Positions 1,390 to 59,757 of a DNA stretch of 64,000 nucleotides are shown in pieces. The stretch is from Thermodesulfobacteriota bacterium (GTDB lineage Bacteria > Desulfobacterota > WTBG01 > CAIYCZ01 > CAIRTM01), in NCBI GenBank assembly GCA_028278025.1, contig JANQFE010000150.1, forward strand, positions 1 through 64,000, given 5' to 3'. Below the pieces are notes generated by a model. The model was not told the DNA's origin, ran no database searches, and saw nothing but the letters and a program-made list of their open reading frames with translations. Positions within the stretch are counted from its first letter, which is position 1, and the number at the start of each line of letters is the position of its first letter. Both the position numbers and the translations under genes were made by a program.

Positions 1390-2727
1390 TTAGTGTTTTA
1401 TTTTTTGATAGTATGTTTCATAATCGAACTGCGGATTTTTTTCAGGGGTATGACAGATGATACAGGTCGTCTCTGCTATTTCACCATACTGTTCAGAGGG
1501 TTTTTCCAGATGCTCTCCTGCAGCACCGTGACACATTTCACACTGCACACCCCCCAAAGCAGGCGTGGCATCCGGACTCATGAAACCACCTATATAACCG
1601 AATCCGGTTACATGGCAGGGAATACATTCCGGGTTGAAGTCCTGATTTTTCTTGGCAAGCGACGTAAAGGCCGCTGCATGATCTGTCACGAGCCAATGCT
1701 CTGCCTGGTCTGCATGGCATCGTTCACATGTCTCGTAGCCGGCATAGTACCATCCCGTTTCAGGTGCTTCCGGTACAATATCAAAAAGCTCCTCTTTGTG
1801 TTCCTTCAAAAGAGCATGATAGGTATCCATCAACAACAACATTTCGCTGTCTTCTTCAATATCCGTATTTAAATAAATTACAGTATTCTCTGCATCAGTT
1901 ATTTTTTTGCTCCGGTCAAGGCTGATGGATAACCTGCCGATGTAGGTTCCTAAGGAGCCTGCTTTTACAATATGCACCCCATTGACCAGTAACGGTTCCT
2001 CTGTTATTTCATCACCATAACCACTGATTATGATATCAATTCCTGTAGTGTTCTGGGCAAGGGCAATTGATTGATCCAATCCCACACTGGCCAGTACAAT
2101 AGTAATGTCAGCCTTCTCCTGCAGGCTTTCAATTTCAGACTGCAGTATAGCCAGTTCATCAAGGACTATAATGTCTTTCTGGTTTACGGCGTTTGATTCC
2201 AGGATAGGTGCTTCATGTTCTTTTGCAATAATACCGGTAAAGCCCACGTGCACATTGTTGATTTTAAGAATTATGCCGGAAACTGCTATGGGCGCATGCG
2301 TATCTTCAAAAACGACATTTGCATTAAGGGTGGTCAGATTAAATAATTGCGTTTTATCAAGCAAAAAATCTACACCAAAAAAAAATTCATGACTGCCCAG
2401 ACTCAACATGTCATAGGACATCATCTGCATAGCCTCCAGGGCAATTTCCGCCTTTATCTGTCCCAGCAAACCGTATGAACCTAAAACATTTCCGGCATCA
2501 ACAATAACGGAATGCTGATCATCTGCTAAAGCAGACTTAATGTAGGTAGCCCGCCGGGCTAACCCGCCTGAAGGCTCTATAGGTCAATCACATGATTCGA
2601 TCTCACCCAATGTATCAGAAGTATATAGAATGGTGAGTTCACGCCAGACCACTTGTTCCGGGGAGCATGAGCATGTCGTAAAGATCAAAATCACACAGGC
2701 AAGTAGTATATATAACAAATTATACAT
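1390..2727 (-). CDS. Predicted selenoprotein: 5'-nucleotidase/SoxB-like metallophosphatase fused to tetraheme cytochrome c
   Basis: A 445-residue exported protein, read through an in-frame UGA at 2584-2586 (residue 48). The N-terminus is a lipoprotein-like signal with Cys residues near 19-21. Next comes the first strand of a UshA/SoxB-type metallophosphatase (LYTSDTLGEIE), then C46-D47-U48 followed by GGLARRA. Relatives of this family, from memory, read C-G-C at this place, so UGA stands for the second Cys. Downstream metal motifs are degenerate (DAGNVLG, GSHEFFFG, ISGYGDE), so phosphatase activity is doubtful. The C-terminal part, from about residue 320, has four CxxCH motifs (CERCH, CIPCH, CEMCH, CIICH). 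The start has AAGG 8 bases upstream and lies 20 bp after the propeller gene. Conservation on both sides of the UGA argues against a pseudogene. A conventional annotation would start at 2469 and lose the N-terminus. Confidence 0.85.
2544..2564 (-). promoter_or_regulatory. Candidate bacterial SECIS hairpin, metallophosphatase gene
   Basis: Starting 19 bases after the UGA at 2584-2586 the transcript can fold a 6-bp perfect stem (UAGCCC with GGGCUA) closed by a 3-base loop GGC, extended by one mismatch and two more pairs. The loop begins 28 bases after the UGA and has G in its first two positions. Both agree with the general model of bacterial SECIS elements as I know it. Folding was done by eye. 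Confidence 0.6.
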
Positions 2728-2747: not shown

Positions 2748-3938
2748 TTATTTTTCCAGCATGGCAAGAACAGCGTTAATCATGATATTCGCCAGCGTGC
2801 GCAATCTGTCATTTCTGTTCAGCACCTGTAGTATAGTGGGATTCAGGTGATAGTACAGTGCTATTAATTTTTGTCCTGCCGGAGTCTTGGTCAGCACACT
2901 ATCCCTCACATGCCGCAACAGGATGAGTTGTTGTTGAGTAATCCCGCAGATTTCCTCTATCACGCAATTCTCCTGCCTGCTTCCTCCAATGCCGTCATAG
3001 TGCAGTATAGTACCGGCACTGCCTACAACAAAAACATTGGTTGCTGAACTGCCCCAGATGCCCACAAGTGGACCCGTGTCTTGAACAAGCATTTCTGACC
3101 AGCGCACACCATCAAAATGAAGCACAGCCCCGCCGCTCAAAGCAGGAATTGTCTCATACTCGGCATCATCGTCAGTAAAACCGCCTACGGCAAACACATC
3201 CGTAGCTGAGCTGCCCCAGGTATTCATAATCCATGCATTTGAACCGCTGCTCATTGTTGTCCATTCTATCCCATCCCAGTGCAATATGATACTGTGATCA
3301 CCAGTGACATAAATATCATCTTCTGAACTGCCCCAGATGCCCCAAAGATTTTCTGAGGCTCCACTTTCCACGGATGACCATGAATCCCCATTACCTTTTA
3401 GAATTGTACCTTTTTTCCCTACAATATAAATATTCTCTGCCGAACTGCCCCAAACGGCATGCAGATCCTGTGTGGTCCCGCTTTGCAGAAGTTCCCATTG
3501 CAACCCATCATAATGAAGAAGAGTACCACGGGTACCAACCGCAAAAACATTCGTTTCAGAACTGCCCCAGACGCCTAACAGCCATTCTTCTGTTCCGCTA
3601 ACCATTGAAGACCAGCCGGTACCGTCATAGAACTGGATAGTACCGCCATGACATACACCGAATACTGCTGAGGCCGAACTGCCCCAGATAGCCGAAAGTC
3701 ACGATGATTTATTGTCCATTGCGGTCCAGGTCCCTTCAGGGTTGCCGTCATAATGCAGTATGGTCCCCAGAATACCTACTGCAAATACGTCACCGGCCGA
3801 ACTGCCCCAAACACCTGCAAGGGACCTTTTCGTACCGCTGTCCATCAGAGTCCAGCCGGCTCGCGCCGCAGGTATACCTACAAACATGAGCATAAGCCAG
3901 CAAAGCATTACTACGTTCATACAATTTCTGTTTATCAT
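2748..3938 (-). CDS. Secreted WGSS-repeat beta-propeller-like protein with one in-frame UGA
   Basis: A 396-codon reading frame with a signal peptide (cleavage near AARAG) and seven repeats of about 45 residues built around WGSS-x5-FAVG-x4-ILHYDG, typical of a secreted propeller. An in-frame UGA at 3699-3701 (codon 80) interrupts repeat 2 and splits the gene into 79- and 285-residue frames. At this position the other repeats have S, W, D or N, never Cys, and the next repeat has Trp, so UGG to UGA by one mutation is plausible. A hairpin follows the UGA, however, and both neighbouring genes use UGA as probable Sec. After the repeats comes a Cys-containing C-terminal module with the signature RDSVLTKTPAGQKLIALYY, shared with the protein at 43427. 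The start has a strong RBS (GGGGAGATTAC). Function unknown; either a pseudogene or a third selenoprotein. Confidence 0.7.
3668..3687 (-). promoter_or_regulatory. Possible SECIS-like hairpin after the UGA of the propeller gene
   Basis: From 12 bases after the UGA the transcript can form a 7-bp stem (CUGGGGC with GCCUCAG, one G-U pair) and a 6-base loop AGUUCG, starting 18 bases after the UGA with G as the second loop base. The same DNA word codes the WGSSA motif in the other repeats that lack a UGA, so part of the stem may be coincidence. Confidence 0.3.
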
Positions 3939-3974
3939 GTAATCTCCCCTTTCATCAGTAATTTTTTTTGCACC

Positions 3975-4820
3975 TTACTCATTACAGGGACCGGGATCTG
4001 ATCCGTAGTTAAAATCATTTCCCTCACTGGACCACTCATCCCATCCTCCCTGGTAGCGGTATACATTAGTATACCCAAGCGCTACTGCCGCCCGGGCAGC
4101 ATCGCCGCTGACGGGTCAGGTAAAACCACCGCAATACATGACGACCTTCGCATCCTTATTAATAACAACTTCAGTAAAGGCGTTTCCCCCGTTGATAAGG
4201 TCATCACCTGAAACAAAAAGGGACGACCATATATTAATTGCCCCCGGTATATGTCCCCCCGGATGTACAGGATGTACACCGGCATAAATTTCAGGGCTGT
4301 AAAGATCAATGAGATACTGTGCATCATCAAACGGGCAATTTGCGGTATGCCATTCCTTGAAGGCTTCGTATGCGATAATATAATACTCTCCATTGCGTTC
4401 CCAGTCGGCAGTCCCGCCGGTATAGCACAAGACATTTCTGTATCCCAGGCGGACAGCTTGTTGAGCAAACTGCATTGCCTCCTCGCTACCGGTACCATAG
4501 GTAATGAGAGTTATCTGTTTATCTGTAACTACACTTGTGAGCGCTTCACCATTAGCTATAAGGTTTCCATCGGTATCTATAAAATCGTTAAAAGCAATAT
4601 TCTGAGCATCCTGTATATACCCGGCAGCCCACTCTTCTTGTTCCCTGACATCAATAATAACGGTTGTCTTCATCGCTTCTTGATCTTCTATATAGGCTTT
4701 TAGTTCTTCATATCCGATAGTGCTTACCCTGAGTGCACAGGCCTGTAAGAAAAAAGCATATATACTGCCTACTATCAGAGACCACCAAAAAACCGTAAAA
4801 TGTAAGCGTGCTGAACTCAT
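3975..4820 (-). CDS. Predicted selenoprotein: tandem rhodanese lipoprotein
   Basis: A 281-residue protein read through UGA at 4116-4118 (residue 235). The N-terminus is a lipoprotein signal with lipobox LQAC. Two rhodanese domains follow. The first (IDVREQEEWAAGYI, near residues 50-130) lacks its active-site Cys (TYGTGSEE), so it is structural. The second contains HPGGHIPGAINI and the active loop YCGGFT-U-PVSGDAA, then LGYTNVYRYQGGWDEW to a TAA at 3975. Relatives, as I recall them, carry Cys where the UGA lies, and rhodanese-related sulfurtransferases are a known class of bacterial selenoproteins. RBS GGAG lies just before the ATG, 12 bp after the aminotransferase gene. Expected role: periplasmic transfer of sulfane sulfur or selenium, or a redox activity of the C-x4-U pair. 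A naive call ends at 4116 and loses 46 conserved residues. Confidence 0.9.
4078..4106 (-). promoter_or_regulatory. Candidate bacterial SECIS hairpin, rhodanese gene
   Basis: Beginning 10 bases after the UGA at 4116-4118, the transcript can pair over 12 positions with a single A-G mismatch and two G-U pairs, closed by the 5-base loop CGGGC. The loop starts 22 bases after the UGA and has G in its second position. This is the longest of the three hairpins and fits the expected geometry for a Sec insertion element. Folding was done by eye. Confidence 0.65.
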
Positions 4821-4832
4821 TTTTTTCTCCGT

Positions 4833-6328: not shown

Positions 6329-8194
6329 CTATTCCTCCAGATATAGTTCATCAGCTACGTCTTTCAATCCCAGTTCGCCGAGCTTTTCCCGCGTAGGCCA
6401 GCCGGTTTTTTTATCAAAACCCGATTCTTCGTAATATTCATCAAGCATGCCATCAAAATCATTGATTCGCCGTCCATCATATTTGCCGCCCTTAATCGGC
6501 TCGTTCAGGATTCGCTGGGGAAGCGTGTCATCCTTGCGGTCAAACCCCTCGCGGGCATTAAAAGCCCGTTGAATACAGATTGTGCGCTCTCCTATTTTCA
6601 GATACTCTTTGATATCGATCTTACGACCTGTTATGGCAGCAAATCCTTCCAGCGTCTGATGGACATCCGGAATATTGAACAGGGCCGGGTAAAGGCAGAC
6701 GCCGATACAATTGGAAGCAACGGTGAACTCTTTGTAAGGCTTGTACCATTGGGCAATCCCTTTTTCTGCTGCCGGATCAGGTTTTTCCTTCAGCCCGGTT
6801 ACATCGCTGAAAATGACCCCCATGTCCATAGGAAAGGCCCAGGGCCGCACGACGGTTGCACCGCGCTCGGCCGTGGCTGCAGTCAAAGCTGAAGCCTTGT
6901 TTTGTCGCCACTCATCCCCATCAAGTTCCATGCCCTTGACATGAAATGCATATTCATCGGTGCCTTGGCCCACTATTTCTGCCGCCCGTTTGACCCCCTC
7001 GGCCAGAACATCACCGAAACCTTTCCTAAAAATCATCATTTCCATCATACGAACGCATCCGGGGCCGTCACCCCACGTCAGCGCTAGACCGCCGGTATCT
7101 TTCGTGCTCAACAAACCTTTTTCCTGGCATTCCATGATCCAAGCGGCCAATTCAGAGGCCGAATTGACACAAACCCCGTTTTTGTTGCACAGCTCGGAAA
7201 TTTTTGCGATGGCATTAACATCCGTTATGCCGCACTTCCAGCCCCAGTTCCAGTAGGCCTCTGCCATAGGACCGCTGAATTCCGTGCCTTTAAATTCCCC
7301 TTCTTTTATTCGGTACTCTACGCCGCACCCGATGGGACAGGCATAGCAGGCCCGTGACCCGACATGCAAATTTTTACGTATGTTTTCTATATACAGCTTT
7401 TCATCGGTCCAGCCCCCTTCCTGAAAATGCTTGTGACCGAAATCCTGCACTTCAAATACGGTTTGATTAAAAGCAGCCGAACTCCCGTGTTTCAACATTT
7501 GTATCGGTGGAGCCGCTTGCATGGTTTTATTTATCTGCTTACATAAGGCTTTTAAACGCTCAGGATCTTTAACCGCTACACGGCCGCTTGAGCGGATAAC
7601 AATGGCTTTTAAGTTTTTTGACCCCATGACAGCCCCGCTTCCGCCTTTACCGGCAAAGCGGGTATGGTTGCCTATGCAGGCAAGCCGTACCCGGTTTTCA
7701 CCGGCCGGGCCAATGGAGATGACTTGAATCCGGGAGTCGCCGATTTCGTTTTCCAGGGCCTCCTGCAATTCCTGGATATTCATACCCCAAAGGTGACCGG
7801 CATCCCGTATTTCAATGCTGTTATCATCAATCATAATATAAACCGGCTTTGGGGCACTGCCGTTAACGGCAATCAGCTCATATCCGGCCATGCGCATATG
7901 TGCCCCCCAATGCCCGCCCATATTGGACATGGATATGGTGCCTGTCTCTGGAGATTTAAAGACAACGGTTCCCCGCGGTCCGGCTGGAAAAGCAGTACCG
8001 TTTAGCGGTGCGCTGGCAAAAACAATTGCATTATTGGGACCCAGCGGATCGGCCTTAGGCGGTACCATGTCCCAGATCAGCCGTGTGCCGATCCCTTCGC
8101 CGCCCATGTAGTCGCGTTCAAGTTCTTCAGGTACGGGCATACTGCTGATTTCTGCGGAGCTTAAATGTATTTTTATCATTTTCAGCTTGTTCAT
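6329..8194 (-). CDS. aor: Aldehyde:ferredoxin oxidoreductase (tungsten enzyme)
   Basis: Oxidises aldehydes to carboxylic acids (or the reverse) with ferredoxin, using a bis-pterin tungsten cofactor and one [4Fe-4S] cluster in the cytoplasm. About 621 residues, normal for the family. Seen here: the N-terminal GGEGIGTRL, the pterin-binding stretch GPAGENRVRLACIGNH and the following GKGGSGAVMGSKNLKAI, cluster ligands CYACPIGC, and CIGVC near the C-terminus. The ATG at 8194 was preferred (GAGAAG upstream); GTG 8200 and ATG 8179 are alternatives. It lies 26 bp after the small ferredoxin gene, its likely electron partner, and FdhD is upstream in the same run. The aldehyde substrate cannot be told from the sequence. 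Confidence 0.93.
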   Translation of the reverse strand: MNKLKMIKIHLSSAEISSMPVPEELERDYMGGEGIGTRLIWDMVPPKADPLGPNNAIVFASAPLNGTAFPAGPRGTVVFKSPETGTISMSNMGGHWGAHMRMAGYELIAVNGSAPKPVYIMIDDNSIEIRDAGHLWGMNIQELQEALENEIGDSRIQVISIGPAGENRVRLACIGNHTRFAGKGGSGAVMGSKNLKAIVIRSSGRVAVKDPERLKALCKQINKTMQAAPPIQMLKHGSSAAFNQTVFEVQDFGHKHFQEGGWTDEKLYIENIRKNLHVGSRACYACPIGCGVEYRIKEGEFKGTEFSGPMAEAYWNWGWKCGITDVNAIAKISELCNKNGVCVNSASELAAWIMECQEKGLLSTKDTGGLALTWGDGPGCVRMMEMMIFRKGFGDVLAEGVKRAAEIVGQGTDEYAFHVKGMELDGDEWRQNKASALTAATAERGATVVRPWAFPMDMGVIFSDVTGLKEKPDPAAEKGIAQWYKPYKEFTVASNCIGVCLYPALFNIPDVHQTLEGFAAITGRKIDIKEYLKIGERTICIQRAFNAREGFDRKDDTLPQRILNEPIKGGKYDGRRINDFDGMLDEYYEESGFDKKTGWPTREKLGELGLKDVADELYLEE

Positions 8195-8220
8195 GTGCAC
8201 ACTTCTCTATAAAAATTGGA

Positions 8221-57087: not shown

Positions 57088-59757
57088 TTAAAATTTTTCA
57101 TTAAAAAATTCAGGAAAATAAAACGTTTCATAATTACTGAACATTCCGCTTACTTCCAGTTTCTCGAGCTGGTTTACACGGGTATCATCAAAGCCAAGCT
57201 CCCTGAAATCAATAATACCGTCAGGTGCATGACATTGGGTGCAACGGACAAACGCTTCCATTTCAGTTGTTTTATGCAGCTTATGCCACTGCTGCATATA
57301 CTCATGATCAATACCGACTTTAATATCAACCTCAACCGGCTCCTCGGAGAGTAACGGCTGCCATTGCCCGTTAATGTTTTTAAATGGTGTCAGCTTTGAA
57401 TAATGGTCATCAGTCTGGACAAACAGGCCCGTAGCTGGATCTATCTCCGTGCCGTACGGTTTGCCCTGGGGCTTAAATTTAGTGGGATTAACCCAGCCGA
57501 ATTTAATTTTCTGGCCTTCTTCTACTTTCAGGTGGCACGAATGGCAGGTTAAAAATTCCGTATGCAGATTCATCAATGCTTTTGCCTTCGACTTTTTTCC
57601 ATGCGGATAGGGTGAATGACAGGTAATACAGGATGATTTTTCCGCCCAGGCCTCCAGATTAATATCCTCGGTAGTCAAATGAAAATGTTTATGTTTCTGC
57701 TGCCGTTCCTGGTCCTTAATGCGCAGCGTCTGGTAAGACAAAGTCAGGTTCTTTTCGGTTGCCGGCTCTTTTTTTCTTTCAAATTGAACTTTAAAGGTTA
57801 AATATCCGCTGACACTTGCTGACGTGAGCATAACCACGGCAAACACTATGACGGCCTCAAGAATTGATCGTTTCTTTTGTGATGCAGGCACTGCACTAAC
57901 AGGTCCCCGCAGCAGTTTTTCTTCTTCGGGATCAGCCACGCCTTCCTTCACCTGGCGCTCGTATTCGAGGAAGTGCTCCTCTATCTGATGATCTTTATTA
58001 ATCATACCGTTCCAGAAGGTCCACTGAACAGGAAACCTGCCGGGGGCCATATGCACATTATACATATGCCACAGGGTAATAACCAAAAATGCAAGCACGG
58101 ATTCCTCTGCGTGCATCAGCCTTAAAATATTGACTGAAATTTTTGGAAAGGGCAGATACTGGACCATGAATTCCGGGAATAGCAGGCAGCATCCGGACAG
58201 GGTCAGCACCGAACAGCCCCAGATCATTGCCAGATAATGGACTTTCTGTTTGTACATAAACTTTTCCATTTTAGGCCTGGTTCTCTCCAGCCCGAGAAAA
58301 TAGCGTAAATCAAAATAAAGATCCTTAACGTCTCTTAACAACGGGAACTGTGTACGGCGGATATCAAAGGTCCCGTTTGCAAGCCGTTTAAGACTGCCGA
58401 AAATAAGCACAATAATATGATAGGCACAGTCCAGGGTGAAAATAATGGCATTGATACGATGTATCTTGCGCGTCACATCTATTCCGCCCATCAGATCAAT
58501 TACCTTATGAGAAAGTTCAGCATTGTGAAAAAACAGGGGCAGCCCGGTTGCAACCGCTACAGTAAATGCAAGAGCCATTATTATATGATTAAGCACAATA
58601 TGGATAGAATAACGTGGATAATCGCCCTTGGGGTTGAATGTTACATGACGGTGCAGATTGGGGATCGTCGGTTTTGCTGTACCGTCTGTTTGCGGTTTTT
58701 GGGCCAAGGGCTGCGGTTTTCTGAGCCAGCGGAAAAAACGCGCGTCCTTGTTGCGCAGGCGTCCGTAGGTCTCAACTCCCATAAGCGTGAAAAGGAAGAA
58801 AAGCGTAATAAACATGACAGCTTCCATAATGATTTCAACAACACGGATCTCAGGGCCTTTATCTTTATGTTTACTCAGATGGCTGTCAACCGCAGAAATT
58901 TTGGGACTGGCCCCGGGATGACATTCGCCTGTCTGGCAGGTCTGGTAGCGGTTGTCAGGATGAATTGAGGATTGAGGATCTTGCGGGGGACGGATATCAT
59001 GAATGCTTTCCGAAGCATGACAGCTGATACAGTGAGCCGTATCATCACCACCGAATTGCAGTATACGATAATGAATGGTTTCTTTATATGTTTCAACCGC
59101 CTCTGCCTGCGGCCCTGTAAACCCCATTACATTATGAAAATCTTTATCAGCATGACAGCTGGCACACAGTTCAACGATCTCCATAGCCGGTCTGCTTGTC
59201 TTGTGCTTGAAACGGTGGGATATGTGCATAAACACGCTTTCCATCCCTTTTTCCGTATGACAATTAAGACAGCGCTTCAGGACTTTTTCTGAAGGCACTT
59301 CTTCAGGCAGGACATACAGATCATTTAAGTGACAGTATTTACAGTCAGGCTTTAAGGCGGCTTTTTCCGGGGAATCATCCGGTTTGACGCCATGAATACT
59401 TTTTTGCAGATTGGCGGCTACAGCCTGATGTGAAAAATTTTGTCCGGTCATATTCTTAAATTTGTCAATGTGGCAGGTCTTATTACAGTTAACCTTTTCG
59501 GTCTCGCCGTGAGGCACTTTGGTAATATCGCTGTGGCAGCCTACACAGGTAACATCCCGATGAATTGATTGGTGAAAAACTTCAGTGTCAACATAATAAT
59601 TTTGAAGAGTACCCTCATCATCATAGACCCGGAGCCTGCGGTATTTATGACAAAAAAGACAGTTCTGCGGATCGCTGGCAAACAAAAGGGTACTGCAGAT
59701 ATGCAGGCCGAGCAAGCATGTAATAATACAGATCCATATGGTTTTCTTGTTTAACAT
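57088..59757 (-). CDS. Cytochrome b / multiheme c fusion (CbcL-like quinol:cytochrome oxidoreductase)
   Basis: An 889-residue inner-membrane protein. The N-terminal periplasmic part (25-290) has CLFCH, CVGCH, CKYCH, CLNCH, CASCH and CISCH plus CNKTCH (CxxxCH) and CQTGECH (CxxxxCH). About six membrane helices follow (310-650); four carry His in b-type positions (HIVLNHIIM, CAYHIIVL, RLMHAEES, LWHMYNVH) as in cytochrome b561/FdnI-type quinone-reactive subunits. The periplasmic C-terminus has CITCH, CHSCH and CTQCH. So up to eleven c hemes and probably two b hemes. The layout recalls CbcL of Geobacter, which oxidises menaquinol. Encoded between a propeller and a 16-heme cytochrome. Confidence 0.92.
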   Translation of the reverse strand: MLNKKTIWICIITCLLGLHICSTLLFASDPQNCLFCHKYRRLRVYDDEGTLQNYYVDTEVFHQSIHRDVTCVGCHSDITKVPHGETEKVNCNKTCHIDKFKNMTGQNFSHQAVAANLQKSIHGVKPDDSPEKAALKPDCKYCHLNDLYVLPEEVPSEKVLKRCLNCHTEKGMESVFMHISHRFKHKTSRPAMEIVELCASCHADKDFHNVMGFTGPQAEAVETYKETIHYRILQFGGDDTAHCISCHASESIHDIRPPQDPQSSIHPDNRYQTCQTGECHPGASPKISAVDSHLSKHKDKGPEIRVVEIIMEAVMFITLFFLFTLMGVETYGRLRNKDARFFRWLRKPQPLAQKPQTDGTAKPTIPNLHRHVTFNPKGDYPRYSIHIVLNHIIMALAFTVAVATGLPLFFHNAELSHKVIDLMGGIDVTRKIHRINAIIFTLDCAYHIIVLIFGSLKRLANGTFDIRRTQFPLLRDVKDLYFDLRYFLGLERTRPKMEKFMYKQKVHYLAMIWGCSVLTLSGCCLLFPEFMVQYLPFPKISVNILRLMHAEESVLAFLVITLWHMYNVHMAPGRFPVQWTFWNGMINKDHQIEEHFLEYERQVKEGVADPEEEKLLRGPVSAVPASQKKRSILEAVIVFAVVMLTSASVSGYLTFKVQFERKKEPATEKNLTLSYQTLRIKDQERQQKHKHFHLTTEDINLEAWAEKSSCITCHSPYPHGKKSKAKALMNLHTEFLTCHSCHLKVEEGQKIKFGWVNPTKFKPQGKPYGTEIDPATGLFVQTDDHYSKLTPFKNINGQWQPLLSEEPVEVDIKVGIDHEYMQQWHKLHKTTEMEAFVRCTQCHAPDGIIDFRELGFDDTRVNQLEKLEVSGMFSNYETFYFPEFFNEKF

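Follow-up and report, generated by a model that had tools for sequence, protein, structure and literature searches.

A putative selenoprotein gene joining an UshA-like domain to a tetraheme cytochrome, and its UGA-containing neighbours, in a Thermodesulfobacteriota genome

Organisation of the locus

The window analysed here, a stretch of 64,000 nucleotides from a Thermodesulfobacteriota bacterium, contains exactly three genes that carry a single internal TGA and have no overlapping gene, and these three lie side by side. They code for an UshA-like protein, for a WGSS beta-propeller (scan frame 2748-3974) and for a double-rhodanese protein (scan frame 3975-4832), the last two being located upstream of the UshA-like gene.

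The UshA-like gene is carried by the minus strand (1390-2742) and, with TGA translated as selenocysteine (Sec, U), codes for a protein of 450 amino acids. A plus-strand reading of 1390-2727 was rejected, the gene being absent from that strand. The in-frame UGA (2584-2586) is codon 48 when counted from the ATG at 2727, within a C-D-U motif, as a sequence-only reading of this DNA had stated, and codon 53 when counted from an upstream ATG at 2742. It gives the only U of the product, in the context ESCDUPIEPSGGLARRATYIKS. Without read-through, the listed open reading frame begins only at 2469. The read-through translation and the homologues described by the NCBIfam model NF041198 agree with the same earlier reading that family sequence flanks the UGA on both sides.

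The N-terminal part of the protein is an UshA-like pseudo-phosphatase domain. The C-terminal part (about 1393-1740, minus strand) is a cytochrome c554-like domain with four CxxCH motifs, CERCH, CIPCH, CEMCH and CIICH, and the Pfam Cytochrome_C554 model matches residues 338-406 with an E-value of 1.6e-16. The matches to NF041198 and to Cytochrome_C554 uphold the proposal that one selenoprotein joins an UshA/SoxB-like domain to a tetraheme domain. An AlphaFold model made from four sequences had a pLDDT of 46, too poor for use. Elsewhere in the same genome, contig C121 carries a truncated heme-domain copy of the protein (L022:1228-1746, minus strand), apparently a pseudogene fragment.

The adjacent propeller gene (2748-3938, minus strand) codes for seven WGSS repeats with a CFI-box C-terminus. 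Its single in-frame UGA (3699-3701, minus strand) is found in the sequence KSSULSAIWGSSASAVFGVC. An orthologue, 45-46% identical, is present in genome G014, from the same class and a different family (L063:5037-6176, minus strand), where it also adjoins an UshA-like Sec gene. This orthologue has a TGA at the same column (SPULSGIWGSSPSDVFGVC), followed 16 residues on by the same unique cysteine. Sec and unique cysteine are both absent from three other aligned members of the WGSS repeat family. A confident model of the window's propeller protein (pLDDT 80) shows successive beta-strand repeats, as expected of this fold; U80 opens one strand and C96 closes the following one.

The third gene (3977-4820, minus strand) codes for a double-rhodanese protein, predicted to be exported, with an in-frame UGA (4116-4118, minus strand) in the sequence YCGGFTUPVSGD. 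A homologue found in a member of the UshA-like family (L074, 37% identical) has a cysteine at the UGA column, the pair thus being C-x4-U/C.

Other genes were noted besides. An AOR-like (aldehyde:ferredoxin oxidoreductase-like) gene, recognised by eye in the translation, lies upstream of the Sec cluster (6329-8200, minus strand), as also in G014 (L063:7955-8998). In genome G002, the frame upstream of a Cys-form UshA-like gene (L054:4833-6317, minus strand) starts with a fragment resembling the N-terminus of AOR (MKRDKMIVVNLSTRTRGVQAMREDLERDYMGGEG), as though the AOR gene had been deleted into the frame. Farther along the window, a large run of multiheme cytochrome genes, with NHL-type propeller genes in between, extends from 29413 to 63709; one of the cytochrome genes (57088-59757) has a cytochrome b-like membrane part. 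This run is reminiscent of a gene cluster for respiration or for electron transfer to the cell exterior.

Decoding of the UGA codons

Several lines of evidence strongly support the reading of UGA 2584-2586 as selenocysteine. The first is the alternation of Sec and Cys at this column among homologues. NF041198 matches with an E-value of 1e-30 or below were found in 61 of 117 relatives' genomes. A large share of them have exactly one TGA and, of those read out, the vast majority place it within a CxU motif. The motif is mostly C-G-U, and S-G-U in three. A few heme-less relatives show C-x-x-U-like variants at the Sec site, and others have C-G-C. The nearest relatives of the window protein are L055 (52% identical, C-G-U), L063 (44%, C-G-U) and L054 (43%, C-G-C). 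The statement in the sequence-only reading that relatives have C-G-C at this site holds for L054 and others; it fails for L055, L063 and L113, a member from Candidatus Eisenbacteria with C-G-U. Among those read in a scan of named genomes with the UshA alignment, the new members were L113 and Cys forms only. The protein of the nearest relative (L055:290-2179) also carries an extra C-terminal calcium-binding extension, thrombospondin type 3-like and dockerin-like.

In a tree of 33 sequences, the window protein, L055, L063 and L054 form one well-supported group. The whole tree requires five Sec/Cys changes, at least two of which are forced by well-supported branches, many deep branches being weak and several rows long.

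Second, the decoding machinery, on whose presence the original proposal depended, is encoded in the same genome: a tRNA-Sec with the anticodon TCA (UCA in the RNA) scores 72.7 bits and SelB 375 bits. SelB was above the cut-off in six of seven genomes checked.

Third, the 6-bp hairpin with a GGC loop that had been seen downstream of the UGA is indeed present (UAGCCC-GGC-GGGCUA), about 20-25 nucleotides after the UGA. With flanking pairs, this putative bacterial SECIS element covers about 2540-2568 on the minus strand. In the four Sec members that have this type of hairpin (window, L055, L063 and L113), 24 of 24 hairpin cells are paired, two pairs show compensatory changes, and sliding the register abolishes the pairing. 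In five Cys members, only 37% of the corresponding cells pair, with no both-side changes. A shuffle test of the pairing gave 52/500, a weak result with only four sequences. The energy of the hairpin was compared with synonymous recodings for all three UGA genes; in the UshA-like gene the difference is not significant (p 0.057). A scan of the window with Rfam at gathering thresholds gave zero matches. Many other Sec members carry in its place a loop with the sequence GGUCU, that of the Escherichia coli fdhF SECIS, about nine bases upstream of the GGC-loop position. These alignments suggest that SECIS elements of two shapes may serve the family.

For the neighbouring genes, the evidence differs from case to case. 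The Cys at the UGA column of its homologue makes the rhodanese a likely selenoprotein. As for the propeller, paralogous repeats sometimes have a tryptophan at the UGA column; an origin of the codon by TGG-to-TGA mutation is nevertheless disfavoured by its conservation in two diverged genera and by the unique cysteine, which argue for Sec. Neither the propeller nor its CFI-box or repeat family was found in a 2026 selenoprotein inventory, no selenoprotein family match was found in NCBIfam, and no literature on a bacterial propeller selenoprotein was found. The propeller motif was not found either in nine loci of the named-genome scan (L113-L120, L125). A DNA pattern for the Sec-propeller, run against 395 genomes of the phylum, matched in 14; beyond the window's own site, these matches appear to be chance ones. 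The WGSS propeller is thus a candidate for an undescribed selenoprotein, represented by two sequences only. If its UGA does code for Sec, selenocysteine would be extended to a repeat-propeller scaffold.

Loss of the metal site and possible function

The phosphatase metal site, described as degenerate from the sequence, retains two of eight ligand columns, the D of DxH and the H of GNHE. These columns read DLNSHSYD in the window protein versus DHDNHHHH when intact, and do not make up the two-metal set of UshA/SoxB metallohydrolases. In L019, an ordinary UshA homologue that this genome also encodes, all eight ligands are intact. The GNH[DE] motif has lost its Asn in 32 of 32 homologues, and DxH its His in 31 of 32, so the degeneration belongs to the whole family and not to the window gene alone. 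In that respect, the name "UshA-like" misleads about function. Some relatives, among them L113 and L029, retain several ligands, and residual metal binding is therefore conceivable for the family.

The CxU sits in the loop directly after the first ligand strand, that of the former DxH, and the old active-site region thus appears to bear a selenol/thiol redox site. Together with the general redox use of Sec near Cys and with the fusion to a tetraheme domain, this position leads us to infer a selenol/thiol redox protein wired to hemes. SelB and tRNA-Sec would decode the UGA at the hairpin just downstream. The product would be exported, as predicted from an N-terminal hydrophobic helix and from the c-type hemes. 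Its N-terminal domain has the calcineurin-type 5'-nucleotidase/SoxB fold, with most metal ligands gone. Most probably, the CxU would carry out two-electron thiol/selenol chemistry on a substrate in the periplasm, possibly a sulfane-sulfur, disulfide or oxyanion species, and the c554-like domain would carry electrons to or from it. Sulfur chemistry is the first guess for the substrate because a probable Sec-rhodanese adjoins. The earlier suggestion that the domain has become a redox enzyme is plausible and fits the family-wide loss of ligands beside the CxU. Taken as a whole, we hold this explanation, from a NF041198 selenoprotein decoded through SelB and the hairpin to a pseudo-phosphatase fold acting as a CxU-heme redox protein, to be highly probable.

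An alternative, unlikely in our estimation though to be reckoned with, is a Sec protein without redox catalysis, whose CxU would be a ligand or binding site for a metal(loid) in heme delivery, efflux or sensing, the hemes being structural. The fold derives from a metal-binding enzyme, part of the ligand set is kept in some relatives, and hemes are absent from several family members, all of which speak for such a role. However, according to a review, the homologues of most predicted selenoproteins that contain Cys/Sec motifs are thiol-based oxidoreductases (PMC9312934), and electron transfer is the likelier role for a protein fused to a c554-like tetraheme domain. A genuine phosphatase or a hydrolase of the SoxB type, with Sec and hemes present by accident, would account for the sequence match to 5'-nucleotidases and SoxB, but with only the two ligand columns left we consider it very improbable.

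The remaining alternatives concern the codon itself. The assembly is fragmented (170 contigs) and the genome contains the truncated heme-domain homologue L022, as would suit a UGA produced by faulty sequencing or by nonsense mutation, the gene being then a pseudogene or coding for a shorter protein starting downstream. Against this stand the presence of the UGA at the same column in many independent genomes, a frame that is otherwise open and conserved, a hairpin that covaries and the Sec machinery, which together leave it scarcely credible. Reassignment of UGA to a standard residue (Trp or Gly), which three adjacent genes with in-frame UGA and the Trp in paralogous propeller repeats might evoke, can be practically dismissed: UGA is the stop of eight of the 20 solid open reading frames of the window and Trp is encoded by TGG 164 times, so that UGA is not reassigned and would be recoded as Sec, a single internal UGA occurs in only three genes of the 64 kb, and the aligned residue is Cys in the UshA-like and rhodanese homologues.

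With UGA 2584-2586 read as Sec, the locus would, on balance, be a cassette of three exported selenoproteins, the UshA-like protein with C-D-U, the rhodanese with C-x4-U and an undescribed propeller with Sec in its second repeat, perhaps forming a periplasmic sulfur redox module near the AOR-like gene; we favour this view with some reserve. Should the propeller UGA indeed be Sec, the rhodanese, multiheme and aldehyde oxidoreductase-like context would offer a route to the function of UshA-like selenoproteins.

Relationships with known families

The sequence-only reading knew of no described selenoprotein joining an UshA/SoxB-like domain to a tetraheme cytochrome, and proposed a new selenoprotein family. 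Neither idea survives comparison with NF041198, "UshA-like (seleno)protein" (UshA_like_PCGU). The window protein scores 282.3 bits with this model, a small margin above the curated cut-off of 275. Positions 351-519 of the profile cover the heme domain and align to 1417-1890 of the window; the heme part corresponds to the final third of the profile, so that the UshA-like/heme fusion is already described by the model. UshA-like CxU selenoproteins, assigned to COG0737, were reported as early as 2008 in the Global Ocean Sampling survey (PMC2398784), and UshA-like selenoproteins also appear in reviews and inventories of 2022 and 2026 (PMC9312934, PMC13188914).

The other known systems are more distant. 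TsoB (NF045694) is listed with a UxxxxU motif (PMC13188914), whereas the rhodanese of the window has C-x4-U and scores 79 bits, far below the cut-off of 805; with NF041203, a model of rhodanese selenoproteins, it scores 62.4 bits, below the cut-off of 115. The rhodanese is nevertheless a relative of both families. The SoxB thiosulfohydrolase and the UshA 5'-nucleotidase belong to the same fold family as the UshA-like protein and show some sequence likeness to it, but in the window protein the metal ligands are largely lost and the scores are far below the cut-offs. The cytochrome c554 family (PF13435) is recognised through the four CxxCH and the significant Pfam match; in contrast, the c554-like domain of the window is fused to a Sec domain, and the whole-protein model NF043010 is far below its cut-off. 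UshA-like (seleno)protein family 2 (NF049981), listed with a CxxU motif (PMC13188914), has a related fold; the window protein, at 53.2 bits, is below its cut-off of 140. The selenoproteins of the ocean survey share the COG0737 domain and the CxU of the window protein, and Cys forms are known; unlike in the window protein, fused hemes are not mentioned in the part of that report consulted (PMC2398784).

The closest system is NF041198 itself, which has the same architecture, an UshA-like domain followed by a C-terminal heme region, and the same CxU position. Two traits of the family are found in the window protein: the C-x-[U/C] ahead of GGLAR, as C-D-U followed by GGLARR, and the C-terminal multiheme region, with four CxxCH. 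The differences are a C-D-U motif instead of P-C-G-U, a shorter inter-domain spacer, profile positions 277-350 being skipped, and a hairpin with a GGC tri-loop farther downstream than the GGUCU loop of many members. By these sequence comparisons, the window protein is a new divergent member of this catalogued selenoprotein family, and its gene adds a further divergent member to a family that is known and functionally uncharacterised.
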